NCBI GenBank assembly: GCA_963965975.1
Contig: OZ014424.1
Coordinates: forward strand, 5,536,380 to 5,600,379
DNA: 64,000 nt
Direction of reading: 5' to 3'
From: Xestospongia bergquistia
Lineage: Eukaryota > Porifera > Demospongiae > Haplosclerida > Petrosiidae
Shown piece by piece: positions 667 through 21,055 of this stretch. The notes under the pieces are model-generated. The model made no database searches. It saw nothing but the letters and a program-made list of their open reading frames with translations, and was not told the DNA's origin. How positions within the stretch are numbered: position 1 is the first letter of the stretch; every line of letters starts with the position of its first letter. Made by a program: the position numbers and the translations under genes.

Positions 667-3600
667 GTTAGAATCAATTCATGACAAGTTAACTGATGAT
701 CTCACTACATGTCAAGAAGAGCTAACAATATTAAGAGATAAAGAAAGTAAAGCTACTAAATTAGTCAGTGAACTCTCTACAGTTAAGATATAGCAGCTGT
801 GACACTTTATTTAGCTCCTTTCATTTTAGATTGTTAAAGAACAAAAGAGTCGTATCACAGAATTAACAACAAATCAACAACAATTACTATCACAATATAG
901 AGAGAAGATAGGACAGTTAGACACTGAGATGACTACAAGAAGTAAACTAGAATCAAGAGTATCTATATTACAAGAAGTTAGTGATAACTAGTTAATACTG
1001 GACATGTTAGAATGCTGTCTAGGACAATGCTTGTCTATTGGCTAAGTTATTAGCTCAAGAATCTCTTGTTAAGGGTCTCCGTGAAGAGAGAAAACTTTGG
1101 AGTCAAGAACTAGCTAGTCAAGGAGCTAGTTTAGCTCAAGATCGAGGTAAATTGGAGTCTCAGATTGAGTCTTTGACGAGAGAAGTGTCTGAGCTTCAGG
1201 ATTTATATCAGGTAAGTGAAATGTTATGTGTGATCAAACACACTATAGCAAATATATTAATAGATAACACACTACCAATAGGATCAGTCATTGTAGTAAT
1301 TAAACACACAGTGGCACTACATATCAGAATATATTAATAGATAACACACTACCAATAGGATCAGTCATTGTAGTAATTAAACACACAGTGGCACTACATA
1401 TCAGAATATATTAATAGATAACACACTACCAATAGGATCAGTCATTGTAGTAATTAAACAAGTAAAAAATCAGGTTTAGATGTAGTATTTAGATAACTTT
1501 ATAGAAAAAAAAATGAAAATAAGACAACAATAGTAACAACATCTCTACATAACAAAATAAGGACTACTCAAAAGGGACCAAAAACAAGTACATAAAAAAT
1601 GTTAACATAAAAGATACACAACAAATTATGATATAATAGGAACAAGGTAGTCCTCTTGAGATTTTTCCTTGTTGTCTTGTTTTATTTTATCTTGTTTTAC
1701 ACTGGTATCCCTAAATGTACGAGTAGGATTTAAGATGTGTGTAGTAAATAAACTAAATATGGACTTGAAATTTTGCATTTTTTTCCTCTTTATTTGTTTC
1801 TTATTAACTTCATTTCTCAATTCACTGGTTGTTAGTGAAGATGTAGGTGTGGTCATTGTCTCACTAGATATTTGTGATGATGACTTTATAGTCTGTTCTG
1901 ATGATTGCTTTGTGTCCTGTAATTGTGATGCTATTTGACCTCTATATTTAATTAATAGTTCAATAATGGTTTTCTGTTCAATCTCATTAACTTCATCTAA
2001 TGGAGTTTTATTCATAGAAATAGTATTAGGATTAGCACCTTTTTCTAAGAGCATCTCTACTATTGTGGATTGTTCACCTAATATTGCAAGGAACAAAGGA
2101 GTGAACCCATAATAACTTTCTTGTTTATTAACATCAGCTCCAGCTTGTATAAGAGCATCCACTATATCAACATGTCCACATGATGAAGCTACCATAAGTG
2201 GAGTAACATCACATACCAGTGGAGTGTCTGGATTATCTAATGTCTTCATTGAAACTGCAGCTAAATCTCCTTTAACACATGATACTACTAGTTCTTTCTG
2301 ATCATTAGTGAGGTGTGGAAGTTTGCTTGAGAGAAAAGTAATTAGACCAAGGTCACCACCATAACATAATAGTACTAATGCTTTTTCAATCTCATCAGTA
2401 GTTGGTTCACTTTTGTCTATGAGCACTTCAACAATGCCTCTGTTACCAGTAAGAGCTGCTATTATAAGTGCTGTCATTTCAATTCCTTTAATACACACTA
2501 CTATATGAGTATCTGCTTTTGATTGTAGCAAGCATTCAACTATTTCAAGATGCTCATTCCAAATAGCTAGTATTAGAGCAGTCCATCCATCTTCTTTCTG
2601 AATATTAACATCTGCATTCTCTTTGAGTAGTAGTTCAACAACCTGTGTATTACCATTTTCACTAGCTAGTATTAGAGCAGTCCATCCATCTTCTTTCTGA
2701 ATATTAACATCTGCATTCTCTTTGAGTAGTAGTTCAACAACCTGTGTATTACCATTTTCACTAGCTAACATTAGAGGAGTCCATCCATCTTCTTTCTGAA
2801 TATTAACATCTGCATTCTCTTTGAGTAGTAGTTCAACAACCTGTGTATTACCATTTTCACTAGCTAGTATTAGAGCAGTCATTCCTTTTTGGCTCTGAAT
2901 ATTAACATCTGCATTCTGTTTGAGTAGTAGTTTGACAACCTGTGTATGACCATTTTGACTAGCTAACATTAGAGGAGTCCATCCATCTTCTTTCTGAATA
3001 TTAACATCTGCATTCTCTTTGAGTAGTAGTTCGACAACCTGTGTATTACCATTTTCACTAGCTAGTATTAGAGCAGTCATTCCTTTTTGGCTCTGAATAT
3101 TAACATCTGCATTCTGTTTGAGTAGTAGTTCAACAACCTGTGAATGACCATTGTGACTAGCTCCCATTAAGGCAGTCATTCCTTCTTTGCTCTGAATATT
3201 AACATCTGCATTCTCTTTGAGAAGTAATTCAACAATCTCTGTATGACCATTGCCACTAGCTCCCATTAAGGCATTCATTCCTTCTTTGCTCTGAATATTA
3301 ACATCTACATTCTCTTTGAGTAGTAATTCAACAATCTCTGTATGACCATTGCCACTAGCTCTCATTAAGGCAGTCATTCCTTCTTTGCTCAGAATATGAA
3401 CATCTGCATTCTCTTTGAGTAGTAATTCAACAATCTCTGTATGACCATTACCACTAGCTCCCATTAAGGCATTCATTCCTTCTTTGCTCTGAATATTAAC
3501 ATCTGCATTCTCTTTGAGTAATAGTTCAACAATCTGTGTATGTCCATTATGACTAGCTAGCATTAGGGCAGTCCATCGATCTTCTTTCTGAATATTAACA

Positions 3601-6600
3601 TCTGCATTCTCTTTGAGTAGTAGTTCGACAACCTGTATATTACCATTTTCACTAGCTAGTATTAGAGCAGTCATTCCTTTTTGGCTCTGAATATTAACAT
3701 CTACATTCTCTTTGAGTAGTAATTCAACAATCTCTGTATGACCATTGCCACTAGCTCTCATTAAGGCAGTCATTCCTTCTTTGCTCAGAATATGAACATC
3801 TGCATTCTCTTTGAGTAGTAATTCAACAATCTCTGTATGACCATTACCACTAGCTCCCATTAAGGCATTCATTCCTTCTTTGCTCTGAATATTAACATCT
3901 GCATTCTCTTTGAGTAATAGTTCAACAATCTGTGTATGTCCATTATGACTAGCTAGCATTAGGGCAGTCCATCGATCTTCCTTCTGAATATTAACATCTG
4001 CATTCTCTTTGATTAGTAATTCCACAAGTTGTGTATGACCATTTCGACTAGCTTGCATTAGAGCAGTCATTCCTTTTTCACTCTGAATATTAACATCTGC
4101 ATTCTCTTTGATTAGTAATTCCACAACTTGTGTATGACCATATCGACTAGCTCGCATTAGGGCAGTCCTTCCTTCTTTATCCTGATCATTAACATCTGCA
4201 TTCTCTTTGAGTAATAGTTCAACAATCTCTGTATGACCATTTCGACTAGCTAGCATTAGAGCAGTCATTCCTTTTTTGTTCTGAATATTAACATCTGCAT
4301 TCTCTTTGATTAGTAATTCAACAATCTCTGGATGACCATTGCCACTAGCTCCCATTAAGGCAGTCATTCCTTCTTTGCTCTGATTATTAACATTTGCATT
4401 TTCTTTGAGTAGTAATTCAACAATCTCTGTATAACCATTACCACTAGCTCCCATTAAGGCATTCATTCCTTTTTCGCTCTGAATATTAACATCTGCATTC
4501 TCTTTCAATAGCACTTCAATTACCTGTGTATGTCCATTATGACTAGCTAGCATTAGGGCAGTCCATCGATCTTCCTTCTGAATATTAACATCTGCATTCT
4601 CTTTGAGTAGTAGTTTGACAATCTGTGTATGACCATTTCGACTAGCTAGCATTAGGGCAGTCCATCCTTTTTTATCCTGATTATTAACATCTGCATTCTC
4701 TTTGAGTAGTAGTTCGACAATCTGTGTATGACCATTTTGACTAGCTAGTATTAGAGCAGTCATTCCTTTTTCGCTCTGAATATTAACATCTGCATTCTCT
4801 TTGAGTAGTAGTTCGACAATCTGTGTATGACCATTTCGACTAGCTATCATTAGGGCAGTCCATCCTTCTTTATCCTGATCATTAACATCTGCATTCTCTT
4901 TGAGTAGTAGTTCGACAATCTGTGTATGACCATTATAACTTGCTTCCGTTAGAGCAGTCCATCCTTCTTTATCCTGATCATTAACATCTGCATTCTCTTT
5001 GAGTAGTAGTTCGACAATCTGTGTATGACCATTTTGACTAGCTAGTATTAGAGCAGTCATTCCTTTTTCGCTCTGAATATTAACATCTGCATTCTCTTTC
5101 AATAGCACTTCAATTACCTGTGTATGTCCATTATGACTAGCTAGCATTAGGGCAGTCCATCGATCTTCCTTCTGAATATTAACATCTGCATTCTCTTTGA
5201 TTAGTAATTCCACAAGTTGTGTATGACCATTTCGACTAGCTTGCATTAGAGCAGTCATTCCTTTTTCACTCTGAATATTAACATCTGCATTCTCTTTGAT
5301 TAGTAATTCCACAATCTGTGTATGACCATTATAACTAGCTTCCATTAGAGCAGTCAATCCTTCTTTATCCTGATCATTAACATCTGCATTCTCTTTGAGT
5401 AATAGTTCGACAATCTGTGTATGACCATTTCGACTAGCTAGCATTAGAGCAGTCATTCCTTTTTTGTTCTGAATATTAACATCTGCATTCTCTTTGATTA
5501 GTAATTCAACAACTTGTGTATGAACATATTGACTAGCTCGCATTAGGGCAGTCCATCCTTCTTTATCCTGATCATTAACATCTGCATTCTCTTTGAGTAA
5601 TAGTTCGACAATCTGTGTATGACCATTTCGACTAGCTAGCATTAGAGCAGTCATTCCTTTTTCGCTCTGAATATTAACATCTGCATTCTCTTTCAATAGC
5701 ACTTCAATTACCTGCATATGACCATTATGGCTAGCTAGCATTAGAGCAGTCCATCCATCTTCATTTCGAATATTAACATCTGTATTCTCTTTAAGTAGGA
5801 GTTCAACATCCTCAATATTGCCTTTTTTTGCAGCTTCAATAATAGAGATGGCCAATCCACTACTGAGTTGTAACTGTTGCTTCTCTTCCTCCTCTTTTTG
5901 TGTTGTATTTAAAACATTAAACTGTTCTAACAATTTACAGATATCTTCTCTTCCTTCTTTTCTTGCTTTGTCAGCAACGCTTTGGTCATTGATGAAGATA
6001 TTAGGTTGAGCACCAGATTTAAGTAGTTGTTCTATAACTTGAAGTGATTTGTGTCCTGTTATAGCATATACTAGTGGACTGTACCCATCATTGTCTGTAC
6101 AGTTGACATGAGCTCCACCTTGTAGGAGGACTTCTACTATCTCTGCATGTCCACAAGATGAGGCTATCATAAGTGGAGTAATATCATTGACTACTGTACA
6201 GTTGATATCAACAGTAGAGTCAAAAATATGACTTGTTGTAGAGATGTGATCTCCTTCAGCACTTAATACGAAAAGTTGGAATTCTTCTTGTGTAAAATAG
6301 TCTAGTAAGTGCATTAATAAAATAATAATAAGTTGAGAGTGTCCATATTGACATGCTGTAGTAAGAGCTGTTACTACTAAATGTGATTTTTGTTTCTCTG
6401 GCTGTTTATCAAGTAACATTTCCACTATTTCAATGGAGTTTACATATACTGACACAGTGAGAGCTGTATCATCATTTCTTGTAGTAATAAGTGGATCAGC
6501 ATTAAATTGAAGTAATAACTTCACAATATCTGAGTGATTATTTCGACATGCTATTATAATAGCTGTATCACCAAATTCACCATCATCTCTTTGTATATCA

Positions 6601-9600
6601 GGATTAGCTCCAGTCTGGAGTAGGTACTTGACTATAGTGTAGGAGTTTGTATCACATGCTATCATCAATGCAGTGTAACCAGTGTTGTCTTGAATGTTAG
6701 GATTAGCTCCAGCTGATATTAGTGTTTGTACAACTTGTTCATGTCCTCCTTTACTAGCTAACATTAGTGCTGTACTGCCTTCTTCATTTTGAAAATCGAT
6801 ATTATCAATTAAGTCAAGTAAGAACTGAACAGCTTCATCATTACCAAGTCTTGAAGCATTCTGTAATGTTTGGTCAAAAGAAAAGTGAGTTTCTTCTTTC
6901 TCTTTTAAGATAGTTTGATCATCAATAGTCAGTTCAAAGATACCAATAAGTGATGCAAATTCTTTCCTTAAAGAGCCGATTTCCAAGATGAAGTCTAATC
7001 TTGATCTAGGTACAAGTAGAGTTATATATATTGATCCTTCCTCCACTCGTATATGAGTCATTCTCTGATGGAACATGTAGTTAACCAGTGTCTTAAAGTT
7101 CTCCAATGTTTTCTTTCCCCATTCATGATTAAGTTTGATAACCACTTCACAAGTAATTGACGTGACTTCTGGATTTGGTATCAATGCTTCTGTAACTGCA
7201 TTCTTGAATTTTTCAAGTGTTGTCGATTGTTTAAATTCTTCAAGATGTTGTTTGTAAGTACACATGTCCTTCTGTATCCTCTCATCAATTAGAAAGTCCT
7301 CATTGTCAATGATAACTTCTAATACCTCAACATCAAGGTAGCTATAATATGGCCAAAGTCGCTGAAATAGTTTTGGAATATCTGTAACATCTGTTAATCC
7401 TTCTATTCTAAAATATTCTCCAAGATAATCAGAAATGTCAATAAGTTCAAGTGTTTCATTATCAATTAGTTTACGTAGGGCACTTTTAATATTTTTAACT
7501 AAATTTGTATATTCTTTTTGAAGACTTTTCAATTTTTCAGCTACAGGATAATCTGGAGTGACTGTTATTTCTTGATTTTTAATCCCTACACAAATGGAAA
7601 GCACTAATTAAGCAGAGTCCTTGTTCAGTCCTAGATTAATAAATTAAGAAAGTATACCAAAGCATGAAAACAAACCACTTTACACCTTGCATTAAATGAG
7701 GCAAGTGTTCATTTCTTTCAGAAGATTTGCACATGGTTTACTACCCCGCCCACTTTGTAAAATGACTAAGTCAAGGATATACTACTTACAAAAACAGTGT
7801 AATTTGAGTCTAGACATAACATTTATTCAGGGTGGGCATTTATTTGCACAATACTTGTGTTTGTTCCAGGTGTTTATTCAAAGCTGGCATTTAATGAAAG
7901 AAATACAGTGTATATGTATATATATATATATATACACATACCAACACTTCACTTATAATTAATATAAACATACATATATTCACTATTAAATAGTTGTTTT
8001 AACTGTACAGTCATTTAGGTTTTATACATGCCTACAAATACAATGAAAAATATTAATGTTTTGATTACTAATACTATGGAATTTAGTTTGTGTAGTTGGA
8101 TAAATAACATCTGGCAAATCATCATAGTTCTAACAATTGTATGACTAGTCAATTCCCATCATCTATTAGTAATCAAAACAATATAATGTTTACTGATTTG
8201 GATCAGTAAATTTATCTATAATATGGATTAGCTTCAACCATTGTTCTGGAACATGTGGACTTTATTAATCAATTAATTATTATATACTCATGAATAAATA
8301 ATATTATGAGTTTGTTCAGATAATCTGAGAGTTCAGATTAAAGAAGTCCAGATATATGAGGATTCATTGTAACATGTCTAACATAATTTTATTATAGTAG
8401 AATAAAGAAAGAACAGCACACATAATTTGTGCTTCATTTAAAAATTCAAGTGAATTCAAGTGTCTGTTCATTTTATAATACTGACCTTTTTGTTGTATAT
8501 CCTGTTGTATAAGATCATCACATGTAAGATCTAGTGAGATATCACATTTCTTTTTGACTCCATCAATCCAGTCTTGACATAACTTTTGAGCAGCTAATTT
8601 AGTAGGACCACCTTCACTGGAGAGACATTGTAAGAAAAGTTGACAATGTTCCTGTAACTTTGAAATGTCTTCTTTGATAAATTGCATTGCATTTTCAAAT
8701 TCATCAATCACATTGTGAACAGTTGGAGAATCTCTGACTGATTTACTTATCAGTTTATGTGAATACATCTCTGCAGCAACTTGTGGGAGACATGATTTTA
8801 ATTGTTCACTTAAACAAGCAAAATGACATGTCAGTACACTCTTCAATACTTTATGAACTTCACTTTTTTCTGTAACATCGACACTTGCTATGTTATTAGA
8901 ATGATCTACAGAGTTACCACAGGAAGAGCTTCTATCTTGATCACTTGTTCCTTCTGTCTGTCTTTCTATTTGCCCTTAGAAAAAGAAGAAACTGTCAAGC
9001 CAGCTTCATCCCTCTGATTTCTTGAGATGAAGCCTCACCGTCTATTATATATTTTACTACTATATTATACTACATTGATTATTATTATAATGAACTATAT
9101 ATAGTAGATACCTTCATCTTTAATATCTAGTTGTCCTCTCAGTTTAATAGCAACATCCACATTACCACAACTTTCAACAGCTGAAATAAGTTCTTCCCAA
9201 GAGGGAGAAGTACCATTTGTAATCCACCATTGTAAACCTTTCTCTAGAGCAAAGTGGTAGTCTTGATCACTGCTGGCCATTGTCTTGAGTTGGCTCCTCT
9301 CCTCCAGTGACACACCTAGAAGACTAGTGAGTTCAGTCCATTTATCTTTAACAACAAAACCACTCTTAACAAGAAGTCGTAGAGCATTATTTGATGTCAA
9401 TTCTATTGAAATAAATGAGACATCAGTTATATAGGTGTGTTAATGTTTACTGACCTGTTTTAGGTCCAGGATTAAGTTCAATATCTCCTGATAAAATGAG
9501 GAGAAGTACGAGAAACAAAACTAGAGAGAATATCAAAGTACCACCACCCTCATCTCCTGATGTCAATAGTAACTTCATCCATCCAGGGATATCAGTGGTA

Positions 9601-12600
9601 GAAGGAGTCTTTTTAGTAGTATATGGTATATGATGACAATACCATAACCCAATACTAGCTCTCCATTGACACGTATCAATCATTATGAGCTACAATCTCT
9701 AGACAACTTATTGTATAACTGGGAGTGGTGACTCCCACGCATTTTATTACTCTTGTCCTGGAATAAAATCAATTCTGTAATGGAGCTATTGCAGTAAACA
9801 GTAATTAGCTAAACTAACACAACTGTACTTTTTCTTTCACTGCCACAAGTTCTAGAGTCCCAACAGTATTTCAGCAAAACTCTCCATTGAATTTTGCCAT
9901 AATTTCATAATATAATAATATAAACAAAAAATCTATAAATAACATGATAATCAATAGAAATGAACTTGATTCTTTAAGTATTGTATGAACGTCTGCTTCA
10001 AATGTGTTCACTTCACACTACAAGGTAATAAAACTTGTAAGCATTTTTGAACAGATTACTTGAAATTGAAATGTATACACATGAAGACAATTATGAGGAC
10101 TGAGTGTTTTCTCCTAAGTATTTATATCAGTTAGATCACAATCTGTCTGTCCACTTATTGGAATCTAAATGATTTAGAACATAGAGTGTAGAGACAAAAG
10201 ATTTAACTAACATATATACTCCAGATATAAGCTATCTAGTTCATAACCTCACAATCAGGTATTTGATAAAGGAAAAGAATACCAAGATATGAGGCTATCA
10301 AGTTCAAAGAAACTATCTATTATTATTATGGTATAAAATATAAGGAGAAGGTTAAAATTGATACCACCTACTAGCAACTGACCCTTTCTTTGTTACTATA
10401 ATAGAAATATATGTAATGATTATCAATTGATATAAATCTATTATGACTTTTTTACAGTAACTGTAGTAACATTGATGTCATTATGATGTCATGATCTGTA
10501 TTATAAGTATTATGTCTCAATTAATGGATCTAAGAAGGTTGTCCAAATATGTACAAAATGTCTTGAACCACAAATACAATATACCAGTCTTAAATTTATA
10601 CATTTATAATATAACAAGTAATTAAAGTTTTCCAAGAAAGTTAATGGAATAAAAAATATTGTAGTAATTAAACATACTATAGCACTACATATCAGAATAT
10701 ATTAATAGATAACACACTACCAATAGGATCAGTCATTGTAGCAATCAAACACACAGTGGCACTACATATCAAAATGTATTATTAAAACTTTGTCCAAAAG
10801 TGATCATAATCTCTTATAGTGTCTTTCTAAAATAATAACTAACTAATAACTGACATTATTGCTGCTGTCTCTTAACATGAGTCAGTCATGACACACCTCC
10901 TTTCTCTATTTATCTGCAAACAAGTAAATAATTTTTTTCAGATTTAGATGTAATATTTAAATAACTTTATAGAAAAAACAATGAAAATAAGACAATAATA
11001 ATAGCATTATTTCTACATAACAATACAATGATTGCTCAAAAGGGACCAAAAACAAGTACATTAAAAATGTTAACAAAAAGCTATACAACATATTATTATA
11101 TAATAGGAATAAGGTAGTCTTCTTGACCTTCTTCTTTGTTGTTTTGTTTTCTTTCTTTCTTCTTGTCTTGTTTTACACTGATATCTTTAAATGCATGAGT
11201 AGGATTTGCAATGCGTGAAGTGAATGAACTAAATATGGACTTGATATTTGGCGATCTTTTTTTCTTTGTCTGTTTCTTGTTAGTTTTATTTCTCAATTCA
11301 CTTGTTGTTAGTGAAGATGTAGGTGTGGTCATTGTCTCACTAGATGTTTGTGATGATGACTTTATAGTCTGTTCTGAAGATTGGTTTGTGCCCTGTAATT
11401 GTGATGCTATTTGACCTCCATATTTAATTAATAGTTCAATAATGGTTTCATCGTCAGTCTCGTTAGCTACATCCAATGGAGTTTTATTCATGCAAATAAC
11501 ATTAGGATTGGCACCTTTTTCTAAGAGCATATCTACTATTGTGGATTCTTCGCCAGTTACTGCAAAGAACAAAGGAGTGAACCCATAATAACTTTCTTGT
11601 TTATTAACATCAGCTCCAGCTTGTATGAGAGCCTCCACTATATCATCATGTCCACATGATGAAACTATCATGAGTGGAATAAGACCAAGTACCAGTGGAG
11701 TATCTGGACTATTCAATGTCTTCATTATAACTGCACCTAAATCTCCATTAACACATGAGTCTAGTAGTTCTCTCTGATCATTAGTGAAGTGTGGAAGTTT
11801 CTTTGGGAGCAGAGTAATGTCAGTAGGGTTGTTATCTAAACATAATCGTATTATTACTCCTGTGATTTCAACAGGAGTTGGTTCACTTTTGTCTATGAGC
11901 ACTTTAACAATGTCACTATTACCAGTAAGAACTGCTATTACAAATGCTGTCATTTCCATCCCTTCATTATATGCTACTATATGAGGATCTGCTTTTGATT
12001 CTAGTAAGAATTCAACTACTTCAAGATGTTCGTTCATAGTAGCTAGCATTAGTGCAGTTTCTCCTTCTTTGTTCTGAATATTAACATCTGCATTCTGTTT
12101 GAGAAGCAGTTTGACAACCTGTGTATCACCATTTTCACTAGCTATCATTAGGGGAGTCTTTCCTTTTTTGCTCTGAATATTAACATCTACATTTGCTTTG
12201 AGAAGTAGTTTGACAACCTGTGTATCACCATTTTCACTAGCTATCATTAGGGGAGTCTTTCCTTTTTTGCTCTGAATATTAACATCTGCATTTGCTTTGA
12301 GAAGTAGTTTGACAACCTGTGTATCACCATTTTCACTAGCTAGCATTAGGGGAGTCTTTCCTTTTTTGCTCTGAATATTAACATCTGCATTTGCTTTGAG
12401 AAGTAGTTTGACAACCTGTGTATCACCATTTTCACTAGCTATCATTAGGGCAGTCGATCCTTCTTCATCCTGAATATTAACATCTGCATTCTCTTTGAGT
12501 AGTAGTTCAACAACCTGTGTATTACCATTTTCACTAGCTATCATTAGGGCAGTCGATCCTTCTTCATCCTGAATATTAACATCTGCATTCTTTTTGAGTA

Positions 12601-15600
12601 GTAGTTCAACAACCTGGGTATGACTAGCTAACATTAGGGCAGTCCATCCTTCTTCATTCTGAATATTAATATCTGCATTCTTCTTGATTAGTAGTTCAGC
12701 AACAAATATTTGACCCTTTTTACTAGCTATCATTAGGGGAGTATATCCATTTTTGTCTTGAGTGTTAACATTTGTAGTCTTTTTGAGTAGTAGTTCAGCA
12801 ATCTGGGTATGACAACGGTCAACAGCCATCATTAGAGCATTTGCTCCATTTATAGTTTGTACATTAACATCTGTGTTTTCTTCAAGTAGTAGCTCTACAA
12901 CCTGGGTATGACCATTTTGACTAGCTAACATTAGGGCAGTACATCCATCTTCATTCTGAATATTAACATCTGCATACTCTTTGAGTAGTAGTTGAACAAT
13001 CTGTGTATGACCATTCAGACTAGCTAACATTAAGGCAGTCTCTTCTTCTTCATTCTGAATGTTAACATCTGCATTCTCTTTGAGTAGTAGTTCAACAACC
13101 TGGGTATGACCATTTTGACTAGCTAACATTAGGGCAGTCCATCCTTCTTCATCCTGAATATTAACATCTGCATTCTCTTTGAGTAGTAGTTCAACAACCT
13201 GGGTATGACCATTTTGACTAGCTAACATTAGGGCAGTCCATCCTTCTTCATCCTGAATATTAACATCTGCATTCTCTTTGAGTAGTAGTTCAACAACCTG
13301 GGTATGACCATTTTGACTAGCTGCCATTAGTGCAGTGTATCCATCTTCCTTCTGAATGTTAACATCTGCATTCTCTTTGAGTAGTAGTTCAACAACCTGG
13401 GTATGACCATTTTGACTTGCTAACATTAGGGCAGTCCATCCTTCTTCATCCTGAATATTAACATCTGCATTCTCTTTGAGTAGTAGTTCAACAACCTGGG
13501 TATGACCATTTTGACTAGCTGCCATTAGCACAGTGTATCCATCTGCCTTCTGAATGTTAACATCTGCATTTTCTTTGAGTAATAGTTCAACAACCTGGGT
13601 ATGACCATTTTGACTAGCTATCATTAGGGCAGTCGCTCCTTTTTTGCTCCGAATGTTAATATCTGCATTCTCTTTGAGTAGTAGTTCAGCAACAAATATT
13701 TGACCCTTTTTACTAGCTATCATTAGGGCAGTCCATCCTTCTTCATCCTGAATATTAACATCTGCATTCTCTTTGAGCAGTAGTTCTACAACCTGGGTAT
13801 GACCATTTTGACTAGCTAACATTAGGGCAGTTGCTCCTTTTTTGCTCCGAATGTTAATATCTGCATTCTCTTTGAGTAGTAGTTCAGCAACAAATATTTG
13901 ACCCTTTTTACTAGCTATCATTAGGGGAGTATATCCATTTTTGTCCTGAGTGTTAACATTTGTAGTCTTTTTGAGTAGTAGTTCAGCAATCTGGATATGA
14001 CAACAGTCAACAGCCATCATTAGGGCATTTGTTCCATTTATAGCTTGTACATTAACATCTGTGTTTTCTTCAAGTAGTAGTTCAACAACCTGTGTAAGAC
14101 CATTTTGACTAGCTAACATTACGGCAGTCACTCCGTCTTCATTCTGAATATTAATATCTGCATTCTTCTTGATTAATAGTTCAGCAACATATATTTGACC
14201 CTTTTTACTAGCTATCATTAGGGCAGTCCATCCTTTTTCAGTGTTTTGATTAACTTCTATATTCTCTTTGAGTAGTAGTTCAACAACCTGTGAATGACCA
14301 TTTTGACTAGCTGCCATTAGCGCAGTGTATCCATCTGCCTTCTGAATGTTAACGTCTGCATTCTCTTTGAGTAATAGTTCAACAACCTGGGTATGACCAT
14401 TTTGACTAGCTAACATTAGGGCAGTCCATCCTTCTTCATTCTGAATATTAACATCTGCATACTCTTTGAGTAGTAGTTGAACAACCTGTGTATGACCATT
14501 TAGACTAGCTAACATTAAGGCAGTCTCTTCTTCTTCATTCTGAATGTTAACATCTGCATTCTCTTTGAGTAGTAGTTCAACAACCTGTGTATGACCATTT
14601 TGACTAGCTGCCATTAGTGCAGTGTATCCATCTTCCTTCTGAATGTTAACATCTGCATTCTCTTTGAGTAGTAGTTCAACAACCTGTGTATGACCATTTA
14701 GACTAGCTAATATTAAGGCAGTCTCTTCTTCTTCATTCTGAATGTTAACATCTGCATTCTCTTTGAGTAGTAGTTCAACAACCTGTGTATGACCATTTTG
14801 ACTAGCTGCCATTAGTGCAGTGTATCCATCTTCCTTCTGAATGTTAACATCTGCATTCTCTTTAAGTAGTAGTTGAACAACCTGTGTATGACCATTTAGA
14901 CTAGCTAACATTAAGGCAGTCTCTTCTTCTTCATTCTGAATGTTAACATCTGCATTCTCTTTAAGTAGTAGTTGAACAACCTGTGTATGACCATTTAGAC
15001 TAGCTAACATTAAGGCAGTCTCTTCTTCTTCATTCTGAATGTTAACATCTGCATTCTCTTTGAGTAGTAGTTCAACAACCTGTGTATGACCATTTTGACT
15101 AGCTGCCATTAGTGCAGTGTATCCATCTTCCTTCTGAATGTTAACATCTGCATTCTCTTTGAGTAGTAGTTCAACAACCTGGGTATGACCATTTTGACTA
15201 GCTAACATTAGGGCAGTCCATCCTTCTTCATTCTGAATATTAACATCTGCATACTCTTTGAGTAGTAGTTGAACAACCTGTGTATCACCATTTTGACTAG
15301 CTAGTATTAGAGCAGTTCCTCTTTTTTTGCTTTGAATGTTAGCATCTGCATTCTCTTTGAGTAATAGTTTAACATCCTCAATATTACCTATTTCTGTAGC
15401 TTCAATAGTAGGGGTCATCAATCTGCTGCTACTGAATTGTAACTGTTGCTCCTCCTCCTTTTCTTTTTCCGTTATATTTAAAACATTAAACTGTTCTAAT
15501 AATCTACAGATATCTTCTCTTCCTTCTTCTCTTACTTTATCAACAATACTCTGGTCATTAATAAAGACATTAGGTTGAGCACCAGCTTTAAGTAGTTGTT

Positions 15601-18600
15601 CTATAACTTGAAGTGACTTGTGTCCTGTTATAGCATATACTAGTGGACTGTACCCATCACTGTCTGTATTGTTGACATTAGCTCCTCTTTGTAAGAGGAC
15701 TTGTACTGTTTCTATATGTCCACAAGATGAGGCTATCATAAGAGGAGTAATACCATTGACTAGTATACAGTTGATATCAACAGTAGAGTCAAAAGTATGA
15801 CTTGTTGTAGAAATGTGATCTCCTTCAGCACTTAATATGAAAAGTTGGAATTCATTTTGTGTAAAATAGTCTAGTAAGTACATTAATAAAGTAATAATAA
15901 GTTGAGAGTGTCCATATTGACATGCTATAGTGAGAGCTGTTACTACTAAACTTGATTTCTGGTTCTCTGGCTGTTTATCAAGTAACATTTCCACTATCTC
16001 AATGGAGTTTACATGTACAGATACAGTGAGAGCTGTATCATCATTTCTTGTTGTAATAAGTGGATCAGCATTACATTGAAGTAATAATTTCACAATATCT
16101 GAATGATTATTTCGACATGCTATTATGATAGCTGTGTCACCATCATCATTTTGCATATCAGGATTAGCTCCAGTCTGGAGTAGGTAGTTGACTATATTGT
16201 AGGAGTTTGTATCACATGCTATCATCAATGCAGTATAACCAGTGTTGTCTTGAATGTTAGGATTAGCTCCAGCTGATATTAGTGTTTGTACAACATGTTC
16301 ATGTCCACCTTTACTAGCTAACATTAGTGCTGTTCTACCTTCTTCATTTTGATAATTGATATTATCAATAAAATCAAGTAAGAACTGAACAGCTTCATTA
16401 TTACCAAGTCTTGAAGCATCTTGTAATGCTTGGTCAAAAGAAAATTGAGTTTCTTCTTTCTCTTTCAAGATAGGTTGATCATTAATACTCAGTTCAAAGA
16501 TACCAATAAGTGATGCAAATTCTTTCTTTAAAGTAGCAATTTCCAAGATATAGTCTAACTTTGATTGAGGTACAAGTAGAGTAACATATATTGATCCTTC
16601 CTCCACTCGTATATGAGTCATTCTCTGATGAAACATGTAGTTAACCAGTGTTTTAAAGTTCTCCAATGTCTTCTTTCCCCATTCACGATTAAGTTTGATA
16701 ACCACTTCACAAGTAATTGATGTGACTTCTCGGTTTGGTATCAATGCTTCTGTAACTGCATTCTTGAATTTTTCAAGTGTTGTTGATTGTTTAAATTCTT
16801 CGAGATGTTGTTTATAAGTACACATGTCCTTCTGTATCCTCTCATCAATTAGAAAGTCCTTATTGTCAACGATAACTTCTAATACCTCCACATCAAGGTA
16901 GCTATAATATGGCCAAAGTTGCTGAAATAGTTTTGGAATATCTGTAACATCTGTTAATCCTTCTATTCTATAATATTCTCCAAGATAATCAGAAATATCA
17001 ATAAGTTCAAGTGTTCCATTATTAATTAGTTTACGTAGGGCATTTTTAATATTTTTAACTAAATCTGTATTTTCTTTGTGGAGACTTTTCAATTTTTCAG
17101 CTACAGGATAATCTGGAGTGACTGTCACTTCTTGATTATTAATCCCTACATAAATAGAAAGTACTAATGAAGTAGAGTCTTTTTCAGTCCTAGATTAGCA
17201 ACTTATAAAAGGATAACGAAAGCATGCAAACAAACCATTTTCCACCTGGCATTAAATGAGTTCATTTCTTTCAGAAGATTTGCACGCGGTTTGCACTACC
17301 CCGTCCACTTTGTAAAATGACTAGTCAAGGCTATACTACTTACAAAAACCAGTGTAAGTTGAGTCTAGACCTGGCATTTATTCAGGGTGGGCATTTATTT
17401 GCACAGTACTTGTGTTTTTTCCAAGTGTTTATTCAAGGCTGGCATTTATTCGAAGTAGGCATTTAATGAAGGAAATACAGTGTATATGTATATATATATA
17501 TATATTGACTATTAAATAGTTGGTTGTTTTAACTGATATAGTCATTTAGGTTTCATACATGCCTACAAATATAATGAAAAGTGTTAACAACATATGGTAT
17601 TTTGATTACTGATATTATGGAATTTACAGTTTATATAGTATAAATAATATCTGGTCTAGCTATTTACAAAATCATCATAGTCCTAACAATTGTATGACTA
17701 GTCAATTCCCATCATGTATTAGTAATCAAAACAATATAATGTTTACTGATTTGTATTAGTAAATTTATCTAGTATGGATCAGCTTCAACCCATTGTTCTG
17801 GAACATGTGGACTTTATTAATTCCATTAATTATTATGTACTCATGAATAAATAATATCATGAGCTTATTCAAATAATCTTAGAGTTCAGATTAAAGAAGT
17901 CCAGATATATGAGCATTCATTGTAACATGTCTAACATAATTTTATTATAGTAGTAAAAAGAGAGAGCAGCACACATAATTTGTGCTTTGTTCAAAAATTC
18001 AAGTGTCTGATCACTTTATAATACTGACCTTGTTGTTTCATATCCTGTTGTGTAAGATCATCACATGTAAGATCTAGTGAGATATCGCATTGCTTTTTGA
18101 CTTTATCAACCCATTCTTGACATAACTTTTGAGCAGCTAATTTAGTAGGACCTCCTTCACTGGAGAGACATTGTAAGAAAAGTTGACAATGTTCCTGTAA
18201 CTTTGAAATACTGTTTACTAAATTCATTCCAGTTTCAAATTCACCAATTACATTGTAAACAGTTGGAGAATCTCGGACTGATTTACTTATCAGTCCTTTA
18301 GAATACATTGTTGCAGAAACTTGTGGCAAACATCTACTTAACTGGTTATGTAAGTCAGCAAAATGGCTTGACAATACACTCTTTAACACTTTATGAACTT
18401 CATCATTTTCTGTAGCATTGGTATTTGCTATGTTATTAGAAAGATCTACAGAGTTACCACAAGAAGGACTTCTATCTTGGTCACTTTTTCCTTCTGTCTG
18501 TCTTTCTATTTCCCCTTGTTAAAGAAAGAAAAGGACTATCAAGCCAATTCCATCACTTTCTGAGAGTAAAGCTTCAATATCTACTATATATTTTACTACT

Positions 18601-21055
18601 ATATTATACTACATTGATTATTATTATAATGAACTATAAATAGTGAATACCTTCATCTTTAATATCTAGTTGTCCTCTCAGTGTAGTAGCTACATCCTTA
18701 TCACCACAACTCTCAACAGCTGAGATAAGTTCTTCCCATGAGGGAGCAGTACCATTTGTAATCCACCATTGTAAACCTTCCTCTAGAGCAAAGTGGTAGT
18801 CTTGATCACTGTTGGCCATTGTCTTGAGTCGTCTCCTCTCCTCGAGTGAGACACCAAGAAAACTAGTGAGTTTAGTCCATTTATCTTCAATGACAAAACC
18901 ACTCTTAGAAAGAAGTCTTATAGCGTTATTTGATGTCAATTCTATTGAAATAAATGAGACATCAGTTATATAGGTATGTTAATGTTTACTGACCTGTTTT
19001 AGGTCCAGGATTAAGTTCAATATCTCCTGATAAAATGAGGAGAAGTAAGAGAAATAAAACTAGAGAGAATATCAAAGTACCACCACCCTCATCTCCTGAC
19101 ATCAATAGTGACTTCATCCATCCAGGGGTATCAGTGGTAGAAGGAGTCTTTTTAGTAGTATATGGTATATGATGACAATACCATAACCCAATAGTAGCTC
19201 TCCATTGACACGTATCAATCATAATGATCTTGAAACTATTCCTAGCAAATGAGCACTTAGGTTGTCCCTTTACTCTTGTGTTCTATTTCCTGTAGAATAT
19301 TTTCTGTATATTTAGACCATATGGTGGTTTTGGTTATAATAACTAGTACTGTGAATGTTATTATTAAATATCATGTGATGTGTGTCATGTGAAGGAAGAA
19401 ATGTTATAATTTTGATCAACTGCTCAACTGTTTTCCTATATATAATTATGATCTAGATCTGTTAGTAAGTATATATTAAGACTATAACTTAATCATGTCC
19501 CCAGACATCTTTTTTTACTGTTAAAAATAATATAATCATAGTCATCTACCTGTCATCTACTGTCATTGTACATAGTATTTGTACATAGCACTGACAGTAG
19601 CATACATAGTAAAGCAGTAAATTTTAAATAACAACAAAATACACCAAAATCAGATCTTGTTGTTTTTATGGTTACTATGTAGGGATTGTTGTATTCCATT
19701 AGCTTGTCAGAAAATTGTTTGTTTTAGACTACTTCTTAACAAATATACAGGGATGATATAAACATATAAGAGTATTAGCTACATTATCTTCACTATGATG
19801 TTATAGTAGTGATCTTTTATTTAGACCAGTAAGACTACAGTACGTGTGAGAGAGAAAGTGATTGAAGATCAAACTTCAACTATCAAACAATTAAAAGAGG
19901 TAGGTACCTTGTATATCATTGTTAAACTAATTTAACCAATTAATTGATTAACTACTTTATATTCTATATAATAACTATAGTTCTTATCACAGTTACTATA
20001 AGGGAATTATGATAAGTAACTAACCACATCTATGACAGGTGTGTACTCCCTCAGAGACATATATGTATGATATTTGCCTTAATTCATACTTTATTATATT
20101 GTGTATATTAAATTATATACCAGTTTATTAAATGTAAATATCATATACTGTTATCAATGAGAGAGTGTTCACTTATAGTAGTGTTCAGAGTATTGGTTTG
20201 TTTCTTGTCATAACTTCACTCGAATCAGCTATGACAATGTATTATATATATATAATATATTATACTTTGTTATTGTATCCTTTATTGTATTGTATTGATA
20301 GGAAATATCCACTTTGAAAGCTGAGCTCTCGTCAAACCAGTCTGACTGGTTAAACAAACTTGATGTACTACATAATGATTTAGAGCAGGAACAATCATGC
20401 AGACAAGATCTTAATGAACAACTTGATATTATTACTGAACAAAAAATGAAATGTCAACAACAAATATATGAGAGTAAAGAAAATGAAAAGAAATGGAAAG
20501 AAAAATATAGGTATCACCTGTATGTCTGTCTTTCTGTATATATCTTAATCTTTCTCTCTCTATCTAGTAAATTAAAGGGACAATGGGAGGAGAGAGTGGG
20601 ATTAATAGCTAGTCTAGAGAACAGTGTACACCAGTTACAAGAGAAAGCTAAACAACGTGAACAAGATTTGATAAAAGAGAGAGATCAAGCTATTTTAGAA
20701 TCAAAGTATGTGAACTATATTGATCATTTTAATCTATCATCATCTGTCCATTCATCATGTATTCATTCATCCATCCATTTATTCATCCACTAGACAATCT
20801 CTTGAGCAGTTACAACAAGTCAAGATATCTTTAAATAATCATTTAATAAATCAACAGAAGTTGATAGAAGAGAGAGTTAGCCAGGCACTAAGAGACAAAG
20901 ACATTGAAATATTAGAAGCTCATAGAAATGTGGCAACAGTTGAAAAAGAAATGAGACAAGTATTAACAGAGACAGCTAAAGAAAGGAAAGCTATGGAGGC
21001 CAAGTTTCAACGACTATCAAAAACATTTCATGATTTGCAGAAAGAATTGACCTAA
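1..21055 (+). CDS. LRRCC1: LRRCC1-like centrosomal coiled-coil protein, C-terminal part (5' end outside window)
   Basis: Partial gene. Exons that keep one frame: 1-71, 151-290, 343-459, 508-592, 668-781, 830-976, 1023-1211, 19825-19899, 20302-20510, 20568-20705, 20794-21055 (stop TAA). The product is almost entirely charged coiled coil rich in Q, E, K and L. The exon 1023-1211 segment around LREERKLWSQELASQGASLA and the terminal segment around VEKEMRQVLTETAKERKAME closely resemble the C-terminal half of vertebrate LRRCC1 (CLERC), a centriole/centrosome protein needed for spindle pole integrity and ciliogenesis. The leucine-rich repeats would lie upstream of the window. The intron 1212-19824 is about 18.6 kb while all others are 46-402 nt; it contains two complete antisense genes. 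Joining the two exon blocks is supported by phase 0 on both sides and by collinear similarity to one protein. The family call is from memory, not from an alignment. Confidence 0.85.
1222..1460. repeat. 77-bp tandem repeat, about 3 copies
   Basis: The string GGATCAGTCATTG recurs at 1281, 1358 and 1435, an exact 77-bp period. The repeat lies just after the splice donor at 1212, in the giant LRRCC1 intron. A diverged copy of the same unit lies at about 10660-10790, upstream of the second nested gene's 3' end. The unit therefore marks the left edge of a segmental duplication. Confidence 0.9.
1626..9683 (-). CDS. 2A-peptide / Death-domain / giant ankyrin-repeat protein, copy 1
   Basis: Four exons in transcript order: 9683-9455, 9402-9112, 8974-8486, 7585-1626 (stop TAA); 2322 residues predicted, every junction in phase 1. 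Exon 1 (residues 1-76) ends in a hydrophobic run (about 49-64) followed directly by the 2A-like motif DIELNPGP (67-74). Exon 2 (about 77-173) reads as a Death-type domain: WTELTSLLGVS, then LEKGLQWWITNG, SWEELISAVESCG and the A-x-K-L ending. Exon 3 (about 174-336) is helical and may be a divergent CARD-like fold (weak). Exon 4 starts with about 245 residues of an unrecognised domain, then roughly 50 ankyrin repeats, about 33 of them nearly identical, then a Ser/Thr- and Lys-rich tail. It lies antisense inside an LRRCC1 intron. The architecture suggests an intracellular receptor or scaffold; ligand and pathway are unknown. Confidence 0.85.
2520..5830 (-). repeat. Homogenised 99-bp tandem array encoding about 33 ankyrin repeats (copy 1)
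   Basis: A 99-bp coding unit (33 residues, consensus near GHTQIVELLLKENADVN) is repeated about 33 times with very high DNA similarity. Flanking ankyrin repeats on both sides are much more diverged. Larger units are visible: the rare variant ADVHILSKEGMTALMR occurs twice, its DNA starting at 3390 and 3786, exactly 396 bp (four repeats) apart. This points to recent unequal exchange or gene conversion inside the exon. Confidence 0.9.
7586..8485 (-). other. Third intron of nested gene copy 1; TA microsatellite
   Basis: Non-coding stretch between the helical-domain exon and the ankyrin exon, with a short (TA)n tract near 7915-7935 and AT-rich sequence. The equivalent intron of copy 2 (17146-18028) is clearly homologous. 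Nothing else recognisable. Confidence 0.6.
9462..9485 (-). other. 2A-like ribosome-skipping motif, copy 1
   Basis: Codons for D-I-E-L-N-P-G-P fit the canonical 2A core D-x-E-x-N-P-G-P exactly and are preceded by a leucine-rich stretch and Ser-Gly, as in active 2As. In known 2A peptides the ribosome fails to join the final Gly and Pro and often continues, releasing two proteins. Here the break would lie between the codons at 9465-9467 (Gly73) and 9462-9464 (Pro74), seven nt before the exon end. It would separate a 73-residue peptide with a hydrophobic C-terminal segment from a protein of about 2250 residues. Activity is inferred from the motif only. Confidence 0.8.
9684..11095. other. Spacer between the two nested genes; no gene seen
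   Basis: AT-rich DNA holding the presumed promoter of copy 1 (right of 9683) and the 3' flank of copy 2 (left of 11096). At about 10660-10790 it carries a diverged 77-bp repeat like that at 1222-1460. The 10930-11095 stretch resembles 1480-1625, the matching 3' flank of copy 1. I found no open frame or structured RNA I could support. Confidence 0.6.
11096..19222 (-). CDS. 2A-peptide / Death-domain / giant ankyrin-repeat protein, copy 2
   Basis: Exons in transcript order: 19222-18994, 18941-18651, 18514-18029, 17145-11096; 2351 residues predicted, all junctions phase 1. It matches copy 1 exon for exon. Exon 1 carries the same 2A motif with five residue changes elsewhere (positions 10, 32, 38, 41, 59). 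Exon 2 is a Death-type domain (WTKLTSFLGVS, LEEGLQWWITNG, SWEELISAVESCG). Exon 3 is the same helical domain. Exon 4 holds the unrecognised N-terminal block, diverged ankyrin repeats, about 33 homogenised repeats and a basic tail rich in Lys. The ankyrin consensus differs from copy 1 (NIQNEEGWTALMLASQNGHT versus NIQSEKGMTALMLASRNGHT types), so each array has been homogenised separately since duplication. Both copies lack premature stops. Function is unknown; Death-plus-ankyrin suggests signalling or immune sensing. Confidence 0.85.
12050..15370 (-). repeat. Homogenised 99-bp tandem array encoding about 33 ankyrin repeats (copy 2)
   Basis: Same 99-bp period as the array of copy 1, with its own sequence variants. 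Blocks containing the unusual repeat NVNTQDKNGYTPLMIASKKG recur near 12700-12790 and 13880-13970, showing duplication of multi-repeat segments. One repeat near 12600-12640 has an in-frame internal deletion that shortens it (SHTQVVELLLKKNADVN). The frame stays open throughout. Confidence 0.88.
19001..19024 (-). other. 2A-like ribosome-skipping motif, copy 2
   Basis: Same D-I-E-L-N-P-G-P core as copy 1, again directly after the hydrophobic leucine-rich segment and just before the exon 1 donor at 18993. The predicted break is between the codons at 19004-19006 (Gly) and 19001-19003 (Pro). The motif is unchanged although exon 1 has five residue differences between the copies. Confidence 0.8.
19223..19824. 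other. Right end of the giant LRRCC1 intron; upstream region of nested copy 2
   Basis: AT-rich sequence between the start codon of copy 2 (19222, -) and the LRRCC1 acceptor at 19823-19824. It must hold the copy 2 promoter. The acceptor is preceded by TTTTATTTAG. No further feature seen. Confidence 0.5.

Follow-up and report, generated by a model that had tools for sequence, protein, structure and literature searches.

The closest described counterparts of the element considered here are the sea-urchin NLR leaders and the StopGo (2A) sequences of viruses. In Strongylocentrotus purpuratus, the SpNLR2A leader skips with an efficiency estimated qualitatively at 80% in vitro (Roulston 2016, PMC4981915); a non-skipping mutant of it enters the secretory route, and dual targeting has been demonstrated for it (PMC4981915). 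Viral upstream motifs of the L-rich class end in (A/S/C)G before D at position p12 and prefer S at p15, and cellular use of StopGo is described as absent or rare (Li 2026, PMC12846837). The window analyzed here, a stretch of 64,000 nucleotides from the sponge Xestospongia bergquistia (assembly GCA_963965975.1, contig OZ014424.1, positions 5,536,380 to 5,600,379 of the forward strand), carries a four-exon gene, copy 1, whose first exon ends in a Leu run and a 2A core and whose later exons encode a Death-like domain and ankyrin repeats. A 2A sequence has also reportedly been described, by Odon in 2013, in APE-type non-LTR retrotransposons. We propose that exon 1 is probably a portable StopGo leader and that the efficiency of skipping would set the proportion of cytosolic and membrane forms of the Death-ankyrin protein.

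Read on the minus strand from 9683 to 9455, exon 1 is MIDTCQWRASIGLWYCHHIPYTTKKTPSTTDIPGWMKLLLTSGDEGGGTLIFSLVLFLVLLLILSGDIELNPGP-KT, followed by GTCAGT. It encodes 73 residues up to NPG and ends LLILSG-DIELNPG^P, as the sequence-only reading had noted when it described a Leu run joined to an exact D-x-E-x-N-P-G-P core; the letters match, and the core occupies 9462-9485. An in-frame stop lies two codons upstream of the ATG, which makes the leader the N-terminal part of the protein. The three introns all have GT..AG ends and are of phase 1, and the one between the leader and the Death-like exon spans 52 bp, so that exon 1 would join the Death exon in frame, as that reading had assumed. The four exons give one open frame of 2,322 residues that is predicted to split at NPG^P into 73 and 2,249 residues (from Pro onward), in agreement with the 73 and roughly 2,250 residues put forward earlier. 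In the list of features that follows, dN/dS is the ratio of nonsynonymous to synonymous substitution rates.

9455..9683, minus strand: exon 1 (leader) of 76 codons and one nucleotide, phase 1, ATG at 9681-9683, donor GTCAGT
9642..9680, minus strand: conserved N-terminal motif IDxxQWRxSIGLW, residues 2-14; conservation in 72 leaders, dN/dS 0.29
9492..9545, minus strand: hydrophobic transmembrane-like segment, residues 47-64; Kyte-Doolittle values over 72 leaders, dN/dS 0.38
9462..9485, minus strand: 2A/StopGo core DIELNPG^P, residues 67-74; exact pattern match
9112..9402, minus strand: exon 2, Death-like domain, phase 1-1; begins about 3 residues past the skip site
8486..8974, minus strand: exon 3, phase 1-1; exon model
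1626..7585, minus strand: exon 4, array of ankyrin repeats with the stop codon; Pfam Ank above the cut-off

The core of copy 1 is one of many. A pattern search of the 146.46-Mb genome found 161 exact core sites (95 DIExNPGP and 66 DVExNPGP), and the reversed patterns, sought on both strands of the same sequence, gave 0 sites; chance occurrence of the core was rejected on this comparison. A search of the genome with the leader peptide, which recovered exon 1 itself at 100%, yielded 150 scored matches among 191 candidates. By a scripted recount, 135 of these 150 homologues overlap an exact core, which puts the leader family at no fewer than 135 loci. Among the other 15, two read GVELNPGP, which lies within the core pattern (D/G/C/N)(V/I)ExNPGP (Li 2026, PMC12846837), one has DVELKPGP in an otherwise intact leader, and the remaining 12 contain stops, frame breaks or missing ends, including a 5'-truncated copy that reads DIELNSGP. 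Damage also occurs in some copies with an exact core, e.g., one stop each at C14:910288 and C1:4066382. Nearly all apparently intact leaders therefore retain a permitted core. Among the decayed copies, three on C4 (L056, L057 and L058) have a largely common stop pattern and were for that reason probably duplicated after they had decayed.

Relatives were also found outside the assembly. A profile built from 22 leaders retrieved 468 relatives from a large protein collection, and the core was present in 117 of the 120 listed. Thirteen of these 120 are 100% identical to a fetched leader across 55 or more residues, which implies that the collection includes this species or a close one; relative P0067, with at most 81% identity to anything found in this genome, would instead come from another haplotype or species. 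The sequence-only reading had proposed that the exon 1 protein be used to look for further carrier genes in sponge genomes; it had missed the size of the family, its spread over NACHT, guanylate-binding-protein (GBP) and TPR-CHAT genes, and purifying selection on the first 14 residues.

For the analysis of leader anatomy, loci were fetched that contained 89 exact-site records at 87 of the 161 places. A looser core pattern gave 93 records, 73 of which had an N-terminal similarity score of at least 25; the 72 unique ones form the leader set, and the 20 records under that score were retrotransposon-like or truncated, with one reading DIELNSGP. The N-terminus reads MIDxxQWRxSIGLW, with Q in 70, W in 69, R in 71, G in 69 and the last W in 71 of the 72 leaders, although the similarity score somewhat favors this motif. 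The best 17-residue Kyte-Doolittle mean of the hydrophobic segment was 2.73 over the set (lowest value, 1.63). The hexapeptide LLILSG precedes the core in 54 leaders, and the dipeptide ahead of the core is SG in 66, AG in 3, CG in 2 and SD in 1, so that the (A/S/C)G before D at p12 that marks viral L-rich motifs is found in 71. DIELNPGP itself falls within the (D/G/C/N)(V/I)ExNPGP pattern, and with the Leu-rich stretch and the hydrophobic segment immediately upstream, the core stands in a context suited to 2A activity. A GT donor lies exactly 7 nucleotides past the core in 64 leaders, position -3 of the ATG is A or G in 70, and 4 have an additional in-frame ATG upstream. No match to the leader was found in Pfam or in the PDB sequence set.

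Selection differed along the leader. From 36 disjoint nearest pairs of leaders, dN/dS was 0.29 (95% interval, 0.22-0.39) for residues 2-14, 0.77 (0.66-0.90) for the linker at residues 15-46, 0.38 (0.29-0.49) for the hydrophobic segment at residues 47-64 and 0.04 (0-0.10) for the SG dipeptide. The core gave 0.12 (0.07-0.21), a value biased by the fact that loci were mostly chosen by their core; SG is free of this bias, and because it lies outside the search pattern, its conservation is independent support for selection at the site. An earlier run on close pairs of 64 leaders that were required to have QW gave 0.24 for the N-terminus, 0.89 for the linker, 0.25 for the hydrophobic segment and 0.06 for SG and core together. 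In its predicted anatomy, the leader is modular, consisting of a conserved N-terminus, a fast-evolving linker, a transmembrane-like segment, and SG plus the core.

Many of the genes downstream of the leader resemble immune sensors. There are 95 NACHT matches in the genome (103 of 156 candidates were scored), and 48 of them have a core on the same strand within 6 kb upstream, at distances of 0.74-4.0 kb; uniform placement predicts about 0.3 such associations, although clustering of both elements makes the sites nonindependent. Of the 47 NACHTs that lack an upstream core, 29 form a single array at C2:8.83-9.15 Mb in which none has an exact core within 6 kb upstream, so the leader is not a general feature of NLR-like genes. 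A Death exon lies within 700 bp downstream of 68 of the 161 core sites. When sites were classed with limits of 2.5 kb for Death and 6 kb for NACHT and GBP, ankyrin not being counted, 42 had Death, 32 had Death and NACHT, 17 had NACHT without this type of Death domain, 5 had GBP, and 65 had none of these. Thirty-three of the last group are on C4, many of them in C4:2.5-3.8 Mb, and one C4 gene (L109), read over 5 kb, contained only two frames of at least 90 residues.

At L013, as in the two window copies, ankyrin repeats follow the leader, and many of the Ank_2 matches listed fall in C14 clusters. The five GBP sites (L110 and C3:1.54-1.60 Mb) have guanylate-binding-protein GTPase domains 2.3-5.9 kb downstream, and one C3 gene that was read out has a Death-like frame, with no Pfam match, between the leader and the GTPase domain. 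At L020 (C1:2166401-2176400), a leader with DVEVNPGP is followed by TPR repeats and a CHAT domain, and two carriers have CARD matches under the cut-off. In copy 1, exon 2 alone matches Pfam Death at an E value of 0.0008 (19.9 bits, under the 22.6-bit cut-off), and Pfam Death matches 6 of 10 relatives (best E, 5.7e-6). A PDB profile search with exon 2 returned an engineered repeat protein first (E, 0.00034, with no stretch passing alone) and then FADD (E, 0.027). By these profile matches, exon 2 probably encodes a divergent Death domain, for which support from solved structures is weak. The frame of exon 3 matched no family in a Pfam scan, whereas the identity of exon 4 as ankyrin, which the sequence-only reading had also recognized, is beyond doubt on its Pfam match. 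The Pfam scan of the window found ankyrin but no NACHT in either of the two genes described here, the second being a tandem copy on the same strand whose architecture is the same as that of copy 1 and whose protein has 2,351 residues.

18994..19222, minus strand: copy 2 exon 1, leader (2A core, 19001-19024); exon model
18651..18941, minus strand: copy 2 exon 2, Death-like; exon model
18029..18514, minus strand: copy 2 exon 3; exon model
11096..17145, minus strand: copy 2 exon 4, ankyrin; Pfam and exon model

Twenty-six of the 161 core sites had no leader match. A leader-type N-terminus is still present in three of them (L017, L018 and L020), three are truncated (L036, L047 and L064), and about 20 form another class, in which a Leu run and the core are followed by a PHD-like stretch (10 of 20 read). 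Pfam PHD was found in both sites of this class that were scanned (L024 and L028), with endonuclease matches in L028. Sites of this kind also include L012, L025, L034 and L035, and others lie at C4:8.60-8.91 Mb. They are probably open reading frames of non-LTR retrotransposons.

Compared with SpNLR2A, the sponge leader likewise places a 2A core at the N-terminus of an immune-type multigene family, with a hydrophobic stretch upstream and NACHT carriers, so the parallel with sea-urchin NLR leaders drawn by the sequence-only reading appears apt as an analogy. In contrast to the 26 residues of SpNLR2A (PMC4981915), the leader spans 61-77 residues (median, 73, in the 72 leaders), has the QWRxSIGLW N-terminus and a spacer, forms an exon of its own with a phase-1 donor, and is also found on Death-ankyrin, GBP and TPR-CHAT genes. 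Because its length and N-terminal module differ, we did not class it as a member of SpNLR2A. It resembles L-rich motifs 2 and 6 of viral StopGo in its D(V/I)ExNPGP core and in a hexapeptide ending in (A/S/C)G (PMC12846837) but differs in having mostly L at p15, in residing at the N-termini of cellular genes and in overlapping a transmembrane-type segment. A PHD/endonuclease class with 2A, like that of APE-type elements, is present in this genome; unlike those elements, the genes examined have no PHD, reverse transcriptase or endonuclease after the leader but have immune-type exons instead. No report of 2A leaders in sponge genes was found in the titles and abstracts of the papers listed, a scope that did not take in a survey of eukaryotic 2A (Rao 2025), and a prior description is possible; nothing on them was found in passages of PMC5009743, PMC11512398 and PMC12909245, and in two Amphimedon papers with the phrase "2A-like," the phrase refers to other genes. 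The novelty of the leader family in this genome is accordingly provisional.

Given the exact core, its suitable context and the selection on it, skipping at exon 1 is very likely real. Most ribosomes would skip the Gly-Pro bond and free a peptide about 73 residues long that has a hydrophobic tail at its C-terminus, while continued translation would produce a cytosolic Death-ankyrin protein with an N-terminal Pro. Tail-anchored membrane proteins are the natural comparison for the released peptide, which would end in a hydrophobic segment and about 9 further residues and could be inserted into membranes after release, although its end would be made by skipping rather than by a stop codon. Ribosomes that do not skip would make a fusion, whose emerging hydrophobic segment could route the whole protein to the endoplasmic reticulum. 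In the 72 leaders, the start of the hydrophobic segment is 24-29 residues away from the peptidyl-transferase center when skipping takes place, and the ribosome tunnel holds 30-40 residues (PMC2978324); with the segment still in the tunnel, the skip should decide targeting and not the reverse. With the ribosome at NPG^P, residue 14 is 47-63 residues away from the center in all 72 leaders, so the conserved N-terminus would be exposed outside the tunnel. The phase-1 donor of exon 1 would fit phase-1 downstream exons, and an exon of this form may shuffle easily, in keeping with the spread of the leader across gene types.

Several observations weigh against this proposal. The usual partners of Death and NACHT domains are not known to occur in the endoplasmic reticulum, in or across which the fused form would lie. 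The first 14 residues are conserved beyond what a signal segment needs, which dual targeting leaves unexplained. At p15, 65 of the 72 leaders have L rather than the S preferred by the viral upstream class, although the core does not demand S there. The charges ahead of the hydrophobic segment range from -4 to +2 without a consistent topology, and 23 of 99 Death exon matches lack an exact core in the 2.5 kb upstream. The bias in the dN/dS of the core counts here as well, and since the leader copies are clustered and related, their counts do not equal independent events.

The conservation of the N-terminus suggests that the released peptide has a role of its own or acts on the nascent chain. One elaboration, which we regard as unlikely but worth stating, is that QWRxSIGLW is a nascent-chain sensor through which a bound factor (a chaperone, a membrane or a microbial product) would tune skipping and so switch between cytosolic and membrane sensors; in a weaker form, the released 73-residue peptide would be an immune micropeptide. 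We see a somewhat better, though still tentative, case for a plain two-protein gene, in which an efficient 2A yields a micropeptide with its own membrane function and a cytosolic sensor, with the unskipped fusion as a waste product. The dN/dS of 0.29 in the N-terminal motif beside 0.77 in the linker is in its favor, as are the skip efficiencies of about 93% to almost 100% reported for viral upstream motif classes 1, 3, 4 and 6 (PMC12846837). The conserved N-terminus could, however, serve the unskipped protein or the nascent chain just as well, and the sea-urchin leader was about 20% unskipped in vitro by its authors' estimate (PMC4981915).

The strong hydrophobic segment and the context dependence of 2A activity (PMC12846837, PMC2978324) would also agree with an ordinary signal anchor in which the core is inactive, but we consider this improbable, as no part of the leader is under stronger constraint than SG and the core, and a permitted core is kept by nearly all intact homologues. 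Passive carriage of a motif derived from non-LTR retrotransposons appears less probable again: the class of about 20 separate sites has a Leu run like that of the leaders and, in the sites that were read, a PHD-like stretch after the core, whereas the leaders have a different N-terminus and a splice donor fixed at 7 nucleotides past the core, and they sit on immune-type genes. The leader and the retrotransposon 2A may nevertheless share a remote common origin. A functionless chance match has a negligible claim, given the empty reversed-pattern search and the excess of NACHT associations.

With exon 1 read as a portable StopGo leader, one animal genome would keep a 2A leader under selection at well over a hundred genes, on several immune-type architectures and at half of its NACHT matches. 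The family is a large natural set for measurements of skip efficiency, the core-less NACHT array at C2:8.83-9.15 Mb is a natural comparison set, and the leader contains a conserved motif without a known function. The idea of dual targeting thereby becomes testable beyond sea urchins.

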